The notes under the pieces: model-generated | Database searches by the model: none | What the model was told of the DNA's origin: nothing | What the model saw: only the letters and a program-made list of their open reading frames with translations | NCBI RefSeq assembly: GCF_018332655.1 | Contig: NZ_BOQL01000036.1 | Coordinates: forward strand, 62,001-126,000 | Length of the DNA: 64,000 nt | Direction: 5' to 3' | Origin: Actinoplanes auranticolor | Lineage (GTDB): Bacteria; Actinomycetota; Actinomycetes; Mycobacteriales; Micromonosporaceae | In this document: piece after piece, positions 13,556 to 46,507 of the stretch | How positions within the stretch are numbered: position 1 is the first letter of the stretch | Layout of the letters: each line of letters starts with the position of its first letter | Position numbers and translations under genes: made by a program

Positions 13556-13700
13556 GGGATGACGCGTCCCGTTCAACAGGCCTGCGTACGTGTGAGCGTC
13601 CTGACTCACGGAACCCCGGGGGAATCCGTTCACAGTGGCGCGACCGCACCGGATTCTCACCGGTTTCCCTCACGACGCCGCAGATGGTCCCCACAACCTA
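13556..13700 (-). promoter_or_regulatory. Cobalamin riboswitch
   Basis: Read on the minus strand, the leader shows the conserved order of a B12 aptamer: GGGAAACCGGTG (13659-13670), then AATCCGG, then the B12 box CGCCACTGTG (13631-13640), and downstream GAGTCAGGACGCTC. The ribosome site of cbtB (GGAGG) follows within 30 bases, so translational control is likely. Boundaries are approximate. Confidence 0.93.
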
Positions 13701-43674: not shown

Positions 43675-44547
43675 ATGACCTTGAACATCCCTGATCAGAC
43701 CGGCCGGACCGCCATCGTCACCGGCGGCAGCAGTGGCATCGGCCGGGCCACCGCGGCGGCCCTGGCCGCGAAAGGCGCACGGGTCATCCTCGCCGTACGC
43801 GACCAGACCCGCGGCCGTGCGGCCGCCGCCGAGATCGGCGGACGCGCCGAGTCACGCTCGCTCGACCTCGGGTCGCTGGCCTCGGTGCGGGAGTTCGCCC
43901 GCACGGTCGACGGACCCGTCGACTACCTGATCAACAACGCCGGAGCGATGACCGCCACCTTGCGGCACACCGCCGACGGTTTCGAGAGCCAGCTCGGCGT
44001 CAACCATCTCGGGCACTTCGCGTTGGCGAACCTGCTCCTGGACCGGATCACCCGGCGGGTGGTCACCGTGTCGTCCGCCAACTACCGCGGCGCCCACATC
44101 GACTTGGCGGACCTGCAGTGGCAGCGACGGCCCTATCGGCCGTTCGGTGCTTACGGGCAGAGCAAGCTGGCCAATCTGCTGTTCACCCGGGAACTGCAGC
44201 GCCGCCTGACCGGTGCCGGCTCGGCGGTCCTGGCCACCGCGGCTCACCCCGGCTGGGCGGCTACCGGGTTCACCATGGCCACGGGCCGGCGCCTCCTGGA
44301 CCGCACCCTCGCGCTGGGAACGCGGCTGCTGGCCCAGGGCCCCGACGGCGGGGCCCGGCCGACCCTGCTGGCCACCGTCGGCGACGTCCCCGGCGCCGGC
44401 TTCTGCGGACCGAGCCGGTTCGGGGTACGCGGCCCCGCCGTCCTCGAAGAACTGTCCGGCGCGGCCCTCGACGATGACACCGCGCGAAAGCTCTGGGAGG
44501 TCTCCGAACGCCTCACCGGAGTCCGGTTCTCCCTGGCTACGGCCTGA
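43675..44547 (+). CDS. Short-chain dehydrogenase/reductase
   Basis: 290 residues. The cofactor site is TGGSSGIGRATAAALAAKG (residues about 15-33); NNAG is in YLINNAGAMTATL; the catalytic tyrosine and lysine are in YGQSKLANLLFTREL. The pattern with SSANYRGAH and WAATGF resembles the retinol dehydrogenase-like/WWOX SDR group. ATG 43675 is chosen, with only a weak ribosome site, so the transcript may be leaderless. It converges on thrS and the two coding ends overlap by 11 bases. Confidence 0.88.
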   Translation: MTLNIPDQTGRTAIVTGGSSGIGRATAAALAAKGARVILAVRDQTRGRAAAAEIGGRAESRSLDLGSLASVREFARTVDGPVDYLINNAGAMTATLRHTADGFESQLGVNHLGHFALANLLLDRITRRVVTVSSANYRGAHIDLADLQWQRRPYRPFGAYGQSKLANLLFTRELQRRLTGAGSAVLATAAHPGWAATGFTMATGRRLLDRTLALGTRLLAQGPDGGARPTLLATVGDVPGAGFCGPSRFGVRGPAVLEELSGAALDDDTARKLWEVSERLTGVRFSLATA

Positions 44548-45766
44548 CCACCAGCGGCAGCAGCTCGTGCGAGCGCGCCGCCGCCACCGCACTGATCAGT
44601 GCGACCGCCCGCGCGTACCCCATCGGCGGCAACTGCCGTCCGTCGCGCAGCCGCAGCGCCACCTGGGCGTCGGCCTCCTCCCGCGGCCCGATCACCGCCA
44701 CGTACGGGATCCTGCGCCGGGCGGCCTCCCGGACCCGCGCCCCGAGGGTGCCCTCGCCGTCGACCTGGGCCCGCAGCCCCGCCTCGATCGCCTCGCGGGC
44801 GAAGTCGTCGGCGGCCTTGCGCTGCTGCGCCCCGAGCGGCACCACGCTGATCTGCACCGGCGAGTACCAGACCGGGAACACTCCGGCGTGCAGCTCCAGC
44901 AGGGTGGCGAACAGCCGCTCCATCGAGCCGACCAGGCTGCGGTGCACCATCACCGGGCGGGCCTTCGCGCCGGAGGCGTCGGTGTAGGCCAGGTCGAACC
45001 GGGCCGGCTGGTGAAAGTCGATCTGGATGGTCGACAGGGTGGATTCGCGGCCGGCCGGATCGGCGATCTGGATGTCGATCTTCGGGCCGTAGAAGGCGGC
45101 TTCGCCCTCGACCGCCGCGTAGGGGACCTGAGCGGCGTCGAGGGCCTCGCGCAGCAGCCGTTCGGCCTGGTCCCAGTCGGCGTCCGCGCCGGCGTACTTG
45201 CCGCCGGCGCCGCGCAGCGACAGCTGGTAGGACGACACCTTCAGGCCGAGCGCGGCGTGGGCCCGGCCGATCTGTTCCAGCACGGCGGAGACTTCCCGGC
45301 CGACCTGGGCCACCGGGCAGAAGGTGTGCGCGTCGTTGAGCCAGATCGAGCGGACCCGGCTGAGCCCGCCGAGGACCCCGGAGCGTTCGGCGCGGTACAT
45401 GCCGCCGATCTCGGCGATCCGCAATGGCAGATCACGGTACGAACGGGCCCGCGCCTTGAAGATCAGCGCGTGGTGCGGGCACAGGCTGGGCCGCAGCACG
45501 AGTTCGTCGCCGAGGTGCATGGGCGGGAACATGTCGTCGGCGAAGTTGCGCCAGTGCCCGGACAGCTCGTACATCTGCCGTTTGCCCAGCACCGGCGAGT
45601 AGACGTGCTGGTAGCCGGCGCGCCGTTCGAGTTCGCGCAGGTAGGACTCGACCTCGTAGCGGGCGGCGGCGCCGGCCGGCAACCAGAGCGGCAGGCCGGC
45701 GCCGATCAGCGGGTCGGAGTCGAAGATGTCGAGCTCGCGTCCGAGTTTGCGGTGGTCGACGTTCAT
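44537..45766 (-). CDS. thrS: Short threonyl-tRNA synthetase (catalytic plus anticodon domains only)
   Basis: 409 residues, against 640-690 for full-length ThrRS. The TGS and editing (N2) domains are absent. Class II motif 2 appears as GGMYRAERSGVLGGLSRVRS, the zinc ligands as LCPHH (Cys), NDAHTFC (His) and VMVHRSLVGS (His), and motif 3 with GSMERLFATL. The C-terminal anticodon-binding domain is PVQISVVPLGAQQRKA onward. The wild-type NCPGH reads LCPHH here. Such short extra copies occur in actinobacteria and may be resistance or stress isoforms. It has an attenuator-like leader (separate entries). Confidence 0.9.
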   Translation of the reverse strand: MNVDHRKLGRELDIFDSDPLIGAGLPLWLPAGAAARYEVESYLRELERRAGYQHVYSPVLGKRQMYELSGHWRNFADDMFPPMHLGDELVLRPSLCPHHALIFKARARSYRDLPLRIAEIGGMYRAERSGVLGGLSRVRSIWLNDAHTFCPVAQVGREVSAVLEQIGRAHAALGLKVSSYQLSLRGAGGKYAGADADWDQAERLLREALDAAQVPYAAVEGEAAFYGPKIDIQIADPAGRESTLSTIQIDFHQPARFDLAYTDASGAKARPVMVHRSLVGSMERLFATLLELHAGVFPVWYSPVQISVVPLGAQQRKAADDFAREAIEAGLRAQVDGEGTLGARVREAARRRIPYVAVIGPREEADAQVALRLRDGRQLPPMGYARAVALISAVAAARSHELLPLVVRP

Positions 45767-45774
45767 GGGGTTCT

Positions 45775-45809
45775 CCTGGGTGGTTGCCGGGTCCCGGCAA
45801 CCACCCAGG
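45775..45809 (-). promoter_or_regulatory. Hairpin overlapping the thrS ribosome site
   Basis: On the minus strand CCTGGGTGGTTGCCGGG pairs with its complement (arms 17 bases; realistic stem 14 bp plus a GGGACCC loop). Its 3' arm ends in the AGG of the thrS Shine-Dalgarno AGGAG (45773-45777), nine bases before the ATG, so the hairpin can block translation start. Confidence 0.65.
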
Positions 45810-45815
45810 GACAGC

Positions 45816-45849
45816 GACGCGGCCCCGGGCGGATGCCCGGGGCCGCGTC
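45816..45849 (-). terminator. Putative attenuator terminator hairpin of thrS leader
   Basis: Perfect 15-bp stem (GACGCGGCCCCGGGC and complement) with a four-base loop, 13 bases after the leader-peptide stop. There is no U tract, as is usual in this group. It lies where a transcription attenuator terminator would be expected. Confidence 0.6.
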
Positions 45850-45862
45850 GTCGCAGATCAGA

Positions 45863-45919
45863 TCAGCGCGATGCTCCGCCGGGTCGTCCCGGCGTCGTCG
45901 TCACAGACCTGAGGTTCAT
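45863..45919 (-). CDS. thrS leader peptide with three tandem Thr codons
   Basis: 18 residues: MNLRSVTTTPGRPGGASR. Codons 7-9 are ACG ACG ACG. Immediately after them a small stem (CGCCGGG/CCCGGCG, 45877-45894) could act as a pause hairpin. The ATG coincides with the expected transcription start of the promoter at 45926-45955 (leaderless). The stop is followed by the terminator hairpin. The arrangement mimics ribosome-mediated attenuators of amino-acid operons: when charged tRNA-Thr is scarce the ribosome stalls and thrS is read through. Confidence 0.6.
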   Translation of the reverse strand: MNLRSVTTTPGRPGGASR

Positions 45920-45925
45920 GCGGTC

Positions 45926-45955
45926 ACGGTACGGGCGCGCGACCGCCGGCGGCAA
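45926..45955 (-). promoter_or_regulatory. Promoter of thrS leader
   Basis: Minus-strand TTGCCG (45950-45955) and TACCGT (45926-45931) with 18-base spacing. Transcription would begin six to seven bases on, at or next to the leader ATG at 45919. Confidence 0.5.
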
Positions 45956-45988
45956 AGCGTTTTATGGTGAGCGAAGTGCGCAGGGTAC

Positions 45989-46025: not shown

Positions 46026-46046
46026 GTTGAGTCGGCAGGACTCAAG
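46026..46046 (+). promoter_or_regulatory. HAIR element (HspR-binding site)
   Basis: GTTGAGT-N7-ACTCAAG matches the HAIR consensus (CTTGAGT-N7-ACTCAAG) at 13 of 14 positions. It lies between the hsp20 promoter and start, where bound HspR would block transcription until heat shock. Confidence 0.88.
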
Positions 46047-46081
46047 AACCCTGGTGAGGGAGCACCAAGGAGGAGATGACC

Positions 46082-46507
46082 ATGCTCATGCGCACGGATC
46101 CGTTCCGCGACGTCGACCGCATGTTCGCCCGGCTCGCCGGCACCGCGACGGGCCCCGCGGTGATGCACGTCGACGCCGAGCGCGACGGTGACTGGTTCCA
46201 CGTCTACTTCGATCTGCCGGGCGTCGACCCCGGGTCCATCGATCTGACGGTCGAGCGCAACGTGCTGTCCGTCCGCGCCCAGCGGCAGCGCACCCACCGC
46301 GACGGCGTGGAGAGCGTCATCGCCGAGCGGCCGATGGGGGTCTTCACCCGGCAGCTGTTCCTCGGCGACACACTGGACACCGACAAGCTCGAGGCCGAGT
46401 ACGACAGCGGCGTGCTGCACCTGCGCATCCCCGTCTCGGACAGCGCCAAGCCGCGCCGGATCAGCGTGGCCGCCGGCTCCGGAACCCCACGGCAGATCAA
46501 GGGCTGA
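46082..46507 (+). CDS. Small heat shock protein (Hsp20)
   Basis: 141 residues. The alpha-crystallin domain spans about 28-120 (WFHVYFDLPGVDPGSIDLTVERN, then YDSGVLHLRIPV, the conserved GVL-x-IP end). The N terminus MLMRTDPFRDVDRMF is typical of actinobacterial Hsp18. ATG 46082, six bases after AAGGAGGAG, is chosen over the ATG that immediately adjoins the ribosome site. Regulated by HspR through the HAIR element. It is followed after five bases by a STAS gene. Confidence 0.92.
   Translation: MLMRTDPFRDVDRMFARLAGTATGPAVMHVDAERDGDWFHVYFDLPGVDPGSIDLTVERNVLSVRAQRQRTHRDGVESVIAERPMGVFTRQLFLGDTLDTDKLEAEYDSGVLHLRIPVSDSAKPRRISVAAGSGTPRQIKG

Follow-up and report, generated by a model that had tools for sequence, protein, structure and literature searches.

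A conserved Thr-codon leader ahead of short threonyl-tRNA synthetase genes of soil actinobacteria: a likely leaderless attenuator with pairing at the Shine-Dalgarno sequence

How does an actinobacterium control a second, reduced threonyl-tRNA synthetase (ThrRS)? The 64-kb stretch of Actinoplanes auranticolor DNA analyzed here (the window) carries a short thrS whose product matches TIGR00418 at 426 bits, above the curated cut-off of 383.65, and has the domains PF00587 and PF03129 only, the N-terminal editing domains being absent. Its residues C96, H147, and H275, which we take to be the zinc ligands, are retained in the alignment. A full-length ThrRS is encoded on another contig of the same genome (656.6 bits, model positions 1 to 562 of 565), and the short ThrRS is therefore an extra copy. 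An earlier note on this DNA had read a threonine attenuator into the sequence upstream of the short gene, where we find the following features.

44537..45766, minus strand: short ThrRS gene (thrS), 409 aa, catalytic core and anticodon domain only
45773..45777, minus strand: thrS Shine-Dalgarno (SD) sequence AGGAG, 6 nt 5' of the ATG
45775..45809, minus strand: P3, perfect hairpin of 17 bp with a loop of 1 nt, between P2 and thrS
45815..45850, minus strand: P2, hairpin of regions 3 and 4 and terminator candidate, 16 bp perfect, 4-nt loop
45863..45919, minus strand: leader ORF thrL, MNLRSVTTTPGRPGGASR*, 18 codons, ATG at 45919
45877..45894, minus strand: P1, pause-type stem of regions 1 and 2, CGCCGGG-ACGA-CCCGGCG, within the leader ORF
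45893..45901, minus strand: Thr codons ACG ACG ACG (codons 7 to 9)
45926..45931, minus strand: -10 element TACCGT of the leaderless type, 6 nt 5' of the leader ATG
45950..45955, minus strand: -35 element TTGCCG, read from the sequence
45959..45964, minus strand: WblC/WhiB7-like box TAAAAC, 5/6 to GAAAWY, 3 nt 5' of the -35 element

The promoter that the earlier note had placed ahead of the leader ATG is found at its coordinates, with 18 nt between TTGCCG and TACCGT and 6 nt from the -10 element to the ATG, as are the 18-codon ORF with its three ACG codons and the pause-type stem behind them. P1 directly follows the ACG run and takes in the third Thr codon as well as the Pro codon. The hairpin described as 15 bp long and 13 nt past the leader stop is indeed perfect but measures 16 bp and begins 12 nt past the stop, the outermost pair having been omitted. 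The note overlooked P3, in which the AGG of the SD sequence AGGAG is paired at the base of the stem; this overlap suggests that translation is controlled as well. The leader folds with a z-score of -11.4, none of 200 shuffles folding equally well, and perfect hairpins of at least 14 bp with loops of 1 to 8 nt occur at three places in the window, two of which are P2 and P3. The closest relative (L001, ThrRS 80% identical) lacks the 17-bp form of P3; strands that pair with the SD are common among the relatives. A leaderless plus Thr-run test, which looks for TANNNT 6 to 8 nt 5' of an ATG or GTG and a run of at least three Thr codons, is passed by thrL as the sole ORF of 8 to 40 codons on either strand of the window. 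Generic sigma-70 and U-run terminator scans returned no sites at the leader.

As a check, the earlier note had proposed comparing leaders upstream of short thrS genes in related genomes. We took such genes from a genome contig collection, 150 family genomes, and 394 class genomes, 62 of which carried a short thrS at an E value of 1e-100 or lower; one genome (G439) was left out because its contig ends 54 nt upstream of its short thrS, and family matches of ∼41% identity were full-length thrS, used as controls only. From 185 loci, including that of the window, 15 were excluded (14 at 22 to 39% identity and one duplicate). At 168 of the remaining 170 a Thr-run leader lies 5' of the gene, the other two (L006 and L175) being cut by contig ends, and L006 still shows region 2 and P2. 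The leader is thus found before short thrS in many soil actinobacteria, with hosts that include Amorphoplanes, Paractinoplanes, Streptomyces, Kribbella, Jiangella, and Frankia. An automatic rule that searched open frames for the codon word Thr-Thr-Pro accounted for 164 of the 170 loci, and inspection added four (L139, L160, L180, and L168). Removal of exact duplicates gave 162 leaders, many of them still close kin. A run of two Thr is present by construction of the rule; at least three consecutive Thr, which are not built into it, occur in 159 of the 162. In 145/162, the sequence that best matches an SD is AGGAGN or GGGAGN. Among 20 full-length thrS loci, 0 of 40 upstream strands pass the leaderless plus Thr-run test. 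The comparison bears the note out, in that the Thr-codon ORF, the spacing, and the hairpins go with the short thrS and are not found at the 20 full-length loci.

A covariance model was built from 57 leaders, that is, 63 cluster representatives minus six removed manually because their hairpins or lengths were unusual (L093, L120, L137, L159, L184, and L185). It gave 28 strong matches (49.6 to 78.8 bits) in 197 genomes, all just 5' of a short thrS, and the remaining matches scored 32.8 bits or lower. Since many of the 28 are the model's own source sequences or their kin, the search speaks to specificity and not to discovery. No strong match was obtained in one genome that has a short thrS (G300), the gene lying at a contig end (L175, 217 nt). 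In the genome of the window itself, the leader scored 71 bits and the next place 32.8, and the strong matches of the model, in this genome and in the 197, gave no convincing case of a thrL-type leader at another gene.

Because the leader ORF, its Thr codons, the spacing, and the hairpins track the short thrS, attenuation by shortage of Thr-tRNA is the best reading of the locus. We consider it likely, on the strength of sequence comparison, that thrL is a leaderless ribosome-mediated attenuator of an auxiliary, editing-domain-free ThrRS, and it probably switches this enzyme on when charged threonine tRNA runs short. The observation of the earlier note is real, and its interpretation is partly supported: attenuation by Thr-tRNA shortage stands as the best reading by comparison, but the role of P2 as a terminator finds no U-run to support it.

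The choice of Thr codon is narrow. ACG occupies the three Thr positions in 143, 159, and 162 of the 162 leaders, and the leader Pro codon is CCG in 161, while Thr codons in 33 window genes are 74% ACC and 22% ACG. At the first position the 162 leaders hold 16 synonymous and 3 non-synonymous variants, partly from related species, in a test of synonymous variation that has little power with ACG nearly fixed. We found no structural reason for ACG at the first two Thr codons; the run would fit the use of a minor isoacceptor.

TANNNT stands 6, 7, or 8 nt 5' of an in-frame leader ATG or GTG in 162/162, compared with a mean of 7.7 and a maximum of 11 when the upstream sequence was shuffled 20 times, the test permitting gaps of 4 to 10 nt and every in-frame start near the Thr run. 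In the excerpted text of PMC7157823, the WblC motif GAAAWY lies 3 nt 5' of the -35 element of promoters with a 16- to 19-bp spacer and a TANNNT -10 element. At this position GAAAWY is matched at 5/6 or better in 105/162 leaders, versus 0 to 8 in eleven control windows, and exactly in 44/162, versus 0 to 3; TKG is found at the -35 place in 43/162, versus 4 to 12 at control places. The window promoter shares with those of the WblC/WhiB7 regulon (PMC7157823) the position of the box, the spacer (18 bp here), and TANNNT; its box, at 5/6, differs at the first base, and WblC control is here a prediction from sequence. The same excerpt names thrS2, which we equate with short thrS by name only, as WblC activated in Streptomyces coelicolor, and, according to an excerpt of PMC10771440, the threonyl-tRNA synthetase gene SCO3778 has a sigma-E site in cells under ethanol stress. 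The genome of the window has six WhiB matches; one of them (L253, C42:175565-175714) carries the AT-hook PRGRPRK and is a candidate WblC/WhiB7.

Such a promoter could mean that the leader, like the wblC/whiB7 uORF, is a general sensor of translation stress caused by ribosome-targeting antibiotics, its Thr codons being incidental. The properly placed box, the AT-hook WhiB of the same genome, and the naming of thrS2 as WblC activated (PMC7157823, excerpt) all speak for this, but three Thr codons are kept in 159/162 leaders before a Thr enzyme while the preceding residues vary, which makes it an improbable account. More plausibly, WblC would provide a second input, acting at the promoter.

Pairing in the leader RNA was assessed on 120 of the 162 leaders that fit our segment rules (121 before one more filter); 41 or 42 were left out, their P2 or tail falling outside these rules. 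RNAalifold, run on a MAFFT alignment of the 57 leaders, gave only 7 pairs, all in P2 and 5 of them with two-sided changes, and did not recover P1, which was misaligned across length differences. Our analysis was accordingly based on pairing energies computed for each sequence: for 36 segment pairs, each leader's own segments were compared with segments swapped among 52 sequence clusters. The strongest covariation was that of the lower arms of P2 (E:G; t = -9.6, own partner better in 48/52 clusters), followed by the strand after P2 with the SD arm (H:I; t = -7.9, 41/52), and the apical 5' arm and loop of P2 with the same strand after P2 (F:H; t = -6.9, 43/52). The apical pair of P2 (F:G) covaries at t = -3.5 (38/52). 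Covariation of P1 (B:C) is weak (t = -2.1) because P1 hardly varies, and its pairing is stronger than shuffled in 52/52 clusters. Some pairs were worse with their own partner, for which we have no explanation: D:I (t = +4.4, the largest), E:F (+2.9), and A:G (+2.5).

The signals of E:G, H:I, and F:H persist with 40, 25, 15, or 10 clusters, F:H being better with its own partner in 34, 21, 14, and 10 of them, respectively. When the leaders were grouped by loop class, the own partner gave the better F:H pairing in 45 of 47 classes; for the P2 loop with one base on each side, this held in 39 of 47. In 92 of the 120 leaders, the two sets of bases with which the strand after P2 pairs to its two partners overlap by at least 30% of the smaller one, and the loop and SD pairings therefore mostly exclude each other. 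In 95 of 121 leaders, the SD is paired more often than when the upstream sequence is shuffled, with a modest mean shift (0.71 versus 0.62). In the window, the 5'-side version of the loop/anti-SD pairing is weak (-9.9 kcal/mol) and the 3'-side version stronger (-15.2 kcal/mol). Most likely, the leader carries an extra regulatory layer at the SD.

An RNA element need not involve a translated leader; E. coli thrS has an RNA operator bound by ThrRS itself. The hairpins could likewise be an operator bound by ThrRS, or a riboswitch such as guanidine-II, with the ORF untranslated. A sub-threshold Rfam guanidine-II match (29 bits against a cut-off of 32, E value of 0.00036 for 301 bases) points that way. 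However, the motif was not found in 12 relatives searched at E values up to 5, two ACGR-loop hairpins occur in only 2/162 leaders, an in-frame start keeps the promoter spacing, and the P2 loop varies together with the anti-SD strand, unlike a protein-binding loop, all of which makes this reading very improbable. The match itself (window 45843-45895, minus strand), formed by two ACGA-loop hairpins, we take to be chance, since it is not kept in relatives.

The P2 hairpin had been called terminator-like in the earlier note. As a transcription terminator of the usual kind it fares poorly: the window has no U-run, a loose count finds none in 130/162 relatives, and at least 5 T in 10 nt at the 3' end of P2 are found in 32/162 leaders. 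With no U-run terminator by scan either, we do not place thrL in the classical transcriptional subtype of attenuators. A GC-rich hairpin such as P2 may still terminate alone. Actinobacterial terminators do not always have a U-run.

The same data could instead be explained by control of translation only, P2 being no terminator and the position of the ribosome setting whether the anti-SD strand pairs with the loop and 5' arm of P2 or with the SD. The missing U-run in the window and most relatives is in keeping with this, as are the covarying pairings of SD arm and loop with their overlapping anti-SD bases in 92/120 leaders; for the leader of Streptomyces lividans TK24, the excerpted report gives one hairpin and no U-rich stretch (PMC8079986, Table 4, 2021). 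On the other side, the stem of P2 is, in our judgment, longer than would seem necessary for a translational switch, and in equilibrium folding a blocked P2 releases little SD. Terminators that lack U-runs in actinobacteria also take force from the first point. We regard translation-only control as possible, although doubtful.

For attenuation proper, a second structure has to compete with P2, and the earlier note had suggested folding the leader for mutually exclusive forms. With the Thr-codon region masked, as it would be by a halted ribosome, and the 3' arm of P2 absent, at least 4 pairs form between region 2 and the 5' arm of P2 in 120/120 intermediates, and in 80/120 when unmasked. This complementarity exceeds that of shuffles in 45 and 46 of 52 clusters. 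The 2:3 pairing is seen in folding of these intermediates but does not covary (C:E, t = 0.0; C:F, t = 1.3; 52 clusters), and C:E is worse with its own partner with 10 clusters (t = +3.4). The longest unbroken 2:3 helix in the window is 5 bp. As modeled by folding, a region 2:3 antiterminator is plausible.

When P2 was blocked in the equilibrium model, F:H pairs rose from 0.08 to 2.98 and H:I pairs fell from 9.05 to 7.09, and the SD was hardly freed (paired 0.70 to 0.67, with a decrease in 31/52 clusters). For the window, SD pairing went from 0.69 to 0.75 and F:H stayed at 0. Support for a relay from P2 to the SD comes from covariation rather than from simple energetics, the equilibrium model lending it little. 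A kinetic switch, or a pseudoknot of loop and strand that coexists with P2, would be compatible with the data.

We propose that attenuation at thrL would work as follows. A WblC-type promoter would start the RNA at the leader ATG, judging here from the -10 spacing. With ample Thr-tRNA, the ribosome would reach the leader stop, P2 would form, and transcription would mostly end there; in RNA that reads through, the SD would be sequestered by the strand that separates it from P2, a pairing that covaries. When Thr-tRNA is short, particularly, we infer, the ACG-reading isoacceptor, the ribosome would halt on ACG ACG ACG and cover the 5' arm of P1. Region 2 would be freed and, as folding predicts, pair with the 5' arm of P2 as an antiterminator, so that P2 would be delayed and thrS expressed. 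Complementarity also exists between the anti-SD strand and the top of P2 (its apical loop and upper 5' arm), and the two covary. In the weakest step of the scheme, this pairing would compete with SD sequestration and couple the state of P2 to the translation of thrS.

Tentatively, the two levels may form one switch, in which P2 would be both a terminator-like hairpin and a translation sensor, a single shared strand serving transcription and translation. A formed P2 would hide its loop and leave the next strand to close the thrS SD, a fail-safe for leaky GC-rich terminators, and a ribosome halted on the ACG codons would prevent P2, whose loop and arm would capture the anti-SD strand and open the SD.

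The logic proposed for thrL is that of the enterobacterial thr and trp leaders, attenuators in which 1:2, 2:3, and 3:4 pairings go with a run of regulatory codons. Unlike them, thrL is leaderless, has a GC-rich hairpin without a U-run, and adds pairing at the SD. Lopatovskaya et al. (2010) may have predicted related attenuators, and S. coelicolor trpRS1 is reportedly under attenuation. Ribosome-mediated attenuators are described for Streptomyces trpS and leuS in excerpts of PMC1262725 and PMC8079986, the former stating that conserved RNA structures were not seen upstream of threonine operons. These systems, trpRS1 included, likewise place a leader peptide with cognate codons before an aminoacyl-tRNA synthetase gene, and those of S. 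lividans are leaderless according to the excerpts; thrL differs from them in its amino acid and in the pairing of the P2 loop with the anti-SD strand.

The earlier note knew of no leaderless Thr attenuator of this kind. That claim of novelty does not hold, since a leaderless thrL, MKRVRPFLETTPGFVPAR, had been reported before thrS in S. lividans TK24, its start taken from 5'-end data (PMC8079986, excerpt). It likewise is a leaderless Thr leader before a Thr-tRNA ligase gene, so that the leader of the window is of the thrL type, and the C-terminal VPAR of the S. lividans peptide recurs in the Streptomyces leaders of our analysis. The S. lividans case covers one species and has two Thr codons, and its SLIV_19410 is equated with short thrS by name only; the excerpted account holds no switch model and no analysis of the SD or of a promoter box. 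In the same table (Table 4 of PMC8079986, excerpt), TTTPG, closely resembling the thrS leaders, occurs in the S. lividans metL leader ahead of metNIQ. The excerpts of PMC2965389 and PMC8269248 show no thrS leader, and in literature readable without a subscription we recognized no comparative study of the thrL-thrS leader. A second ThrRS beside a full one is also known from Anabaena, where T2 is stress expressed and impaired in editing (PMC4787780, excerpt); T2 is controlled by Zur (zinc) and has a degenerate editing domain, whereas the short ThrRS here has none, and a leader peptide is not mentioned in the excerpt.

Already known, then, is the basic form, a leaderless thrL before thrS, from one species, S. 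lividans. New are its wide conservation, the near-exclusive use of the minor codon ACG, and the WblC-type promoter, as well as the SD-sequestering pairing and the covarying contact between the apical loop of P2 and the anti-SD strand. In several actinobacterial families, an auxiliary tRNA synthetase is thereby tied to a leader with Thr codons and to a promoter of the stress type, which would link amino acid attenuation with the WblC antibiotic response. The leader offers a testable case for attenuators of GC-rich bacteria whose hairpins are without U-runs, and the covarying contact of loop and anti-SD strand makes a concrete prediction that is open to mutation.

Two further candidates were set aside. 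Rfam scans gave no T-box match and no other family above threshold at the leader, and an arrest peptide was ruled out by the residues before TTTP, which vary among leaders. Elsewhere in the window, an inverted repeat, TTGAGT-N7-ACTCAAG (46027-46046, plus strand), lies in the region from which the thrS leader and an Hsp20-like gene (46076-46507, plus strand), named from its ORF reading alone, diverge; the repeat resembles the HspR operator HAIR. A cobalamin riboswitch match is present at 13596-13668 on the minus strand, with 39.4 bits against an Rfam cut-off of 31.5.
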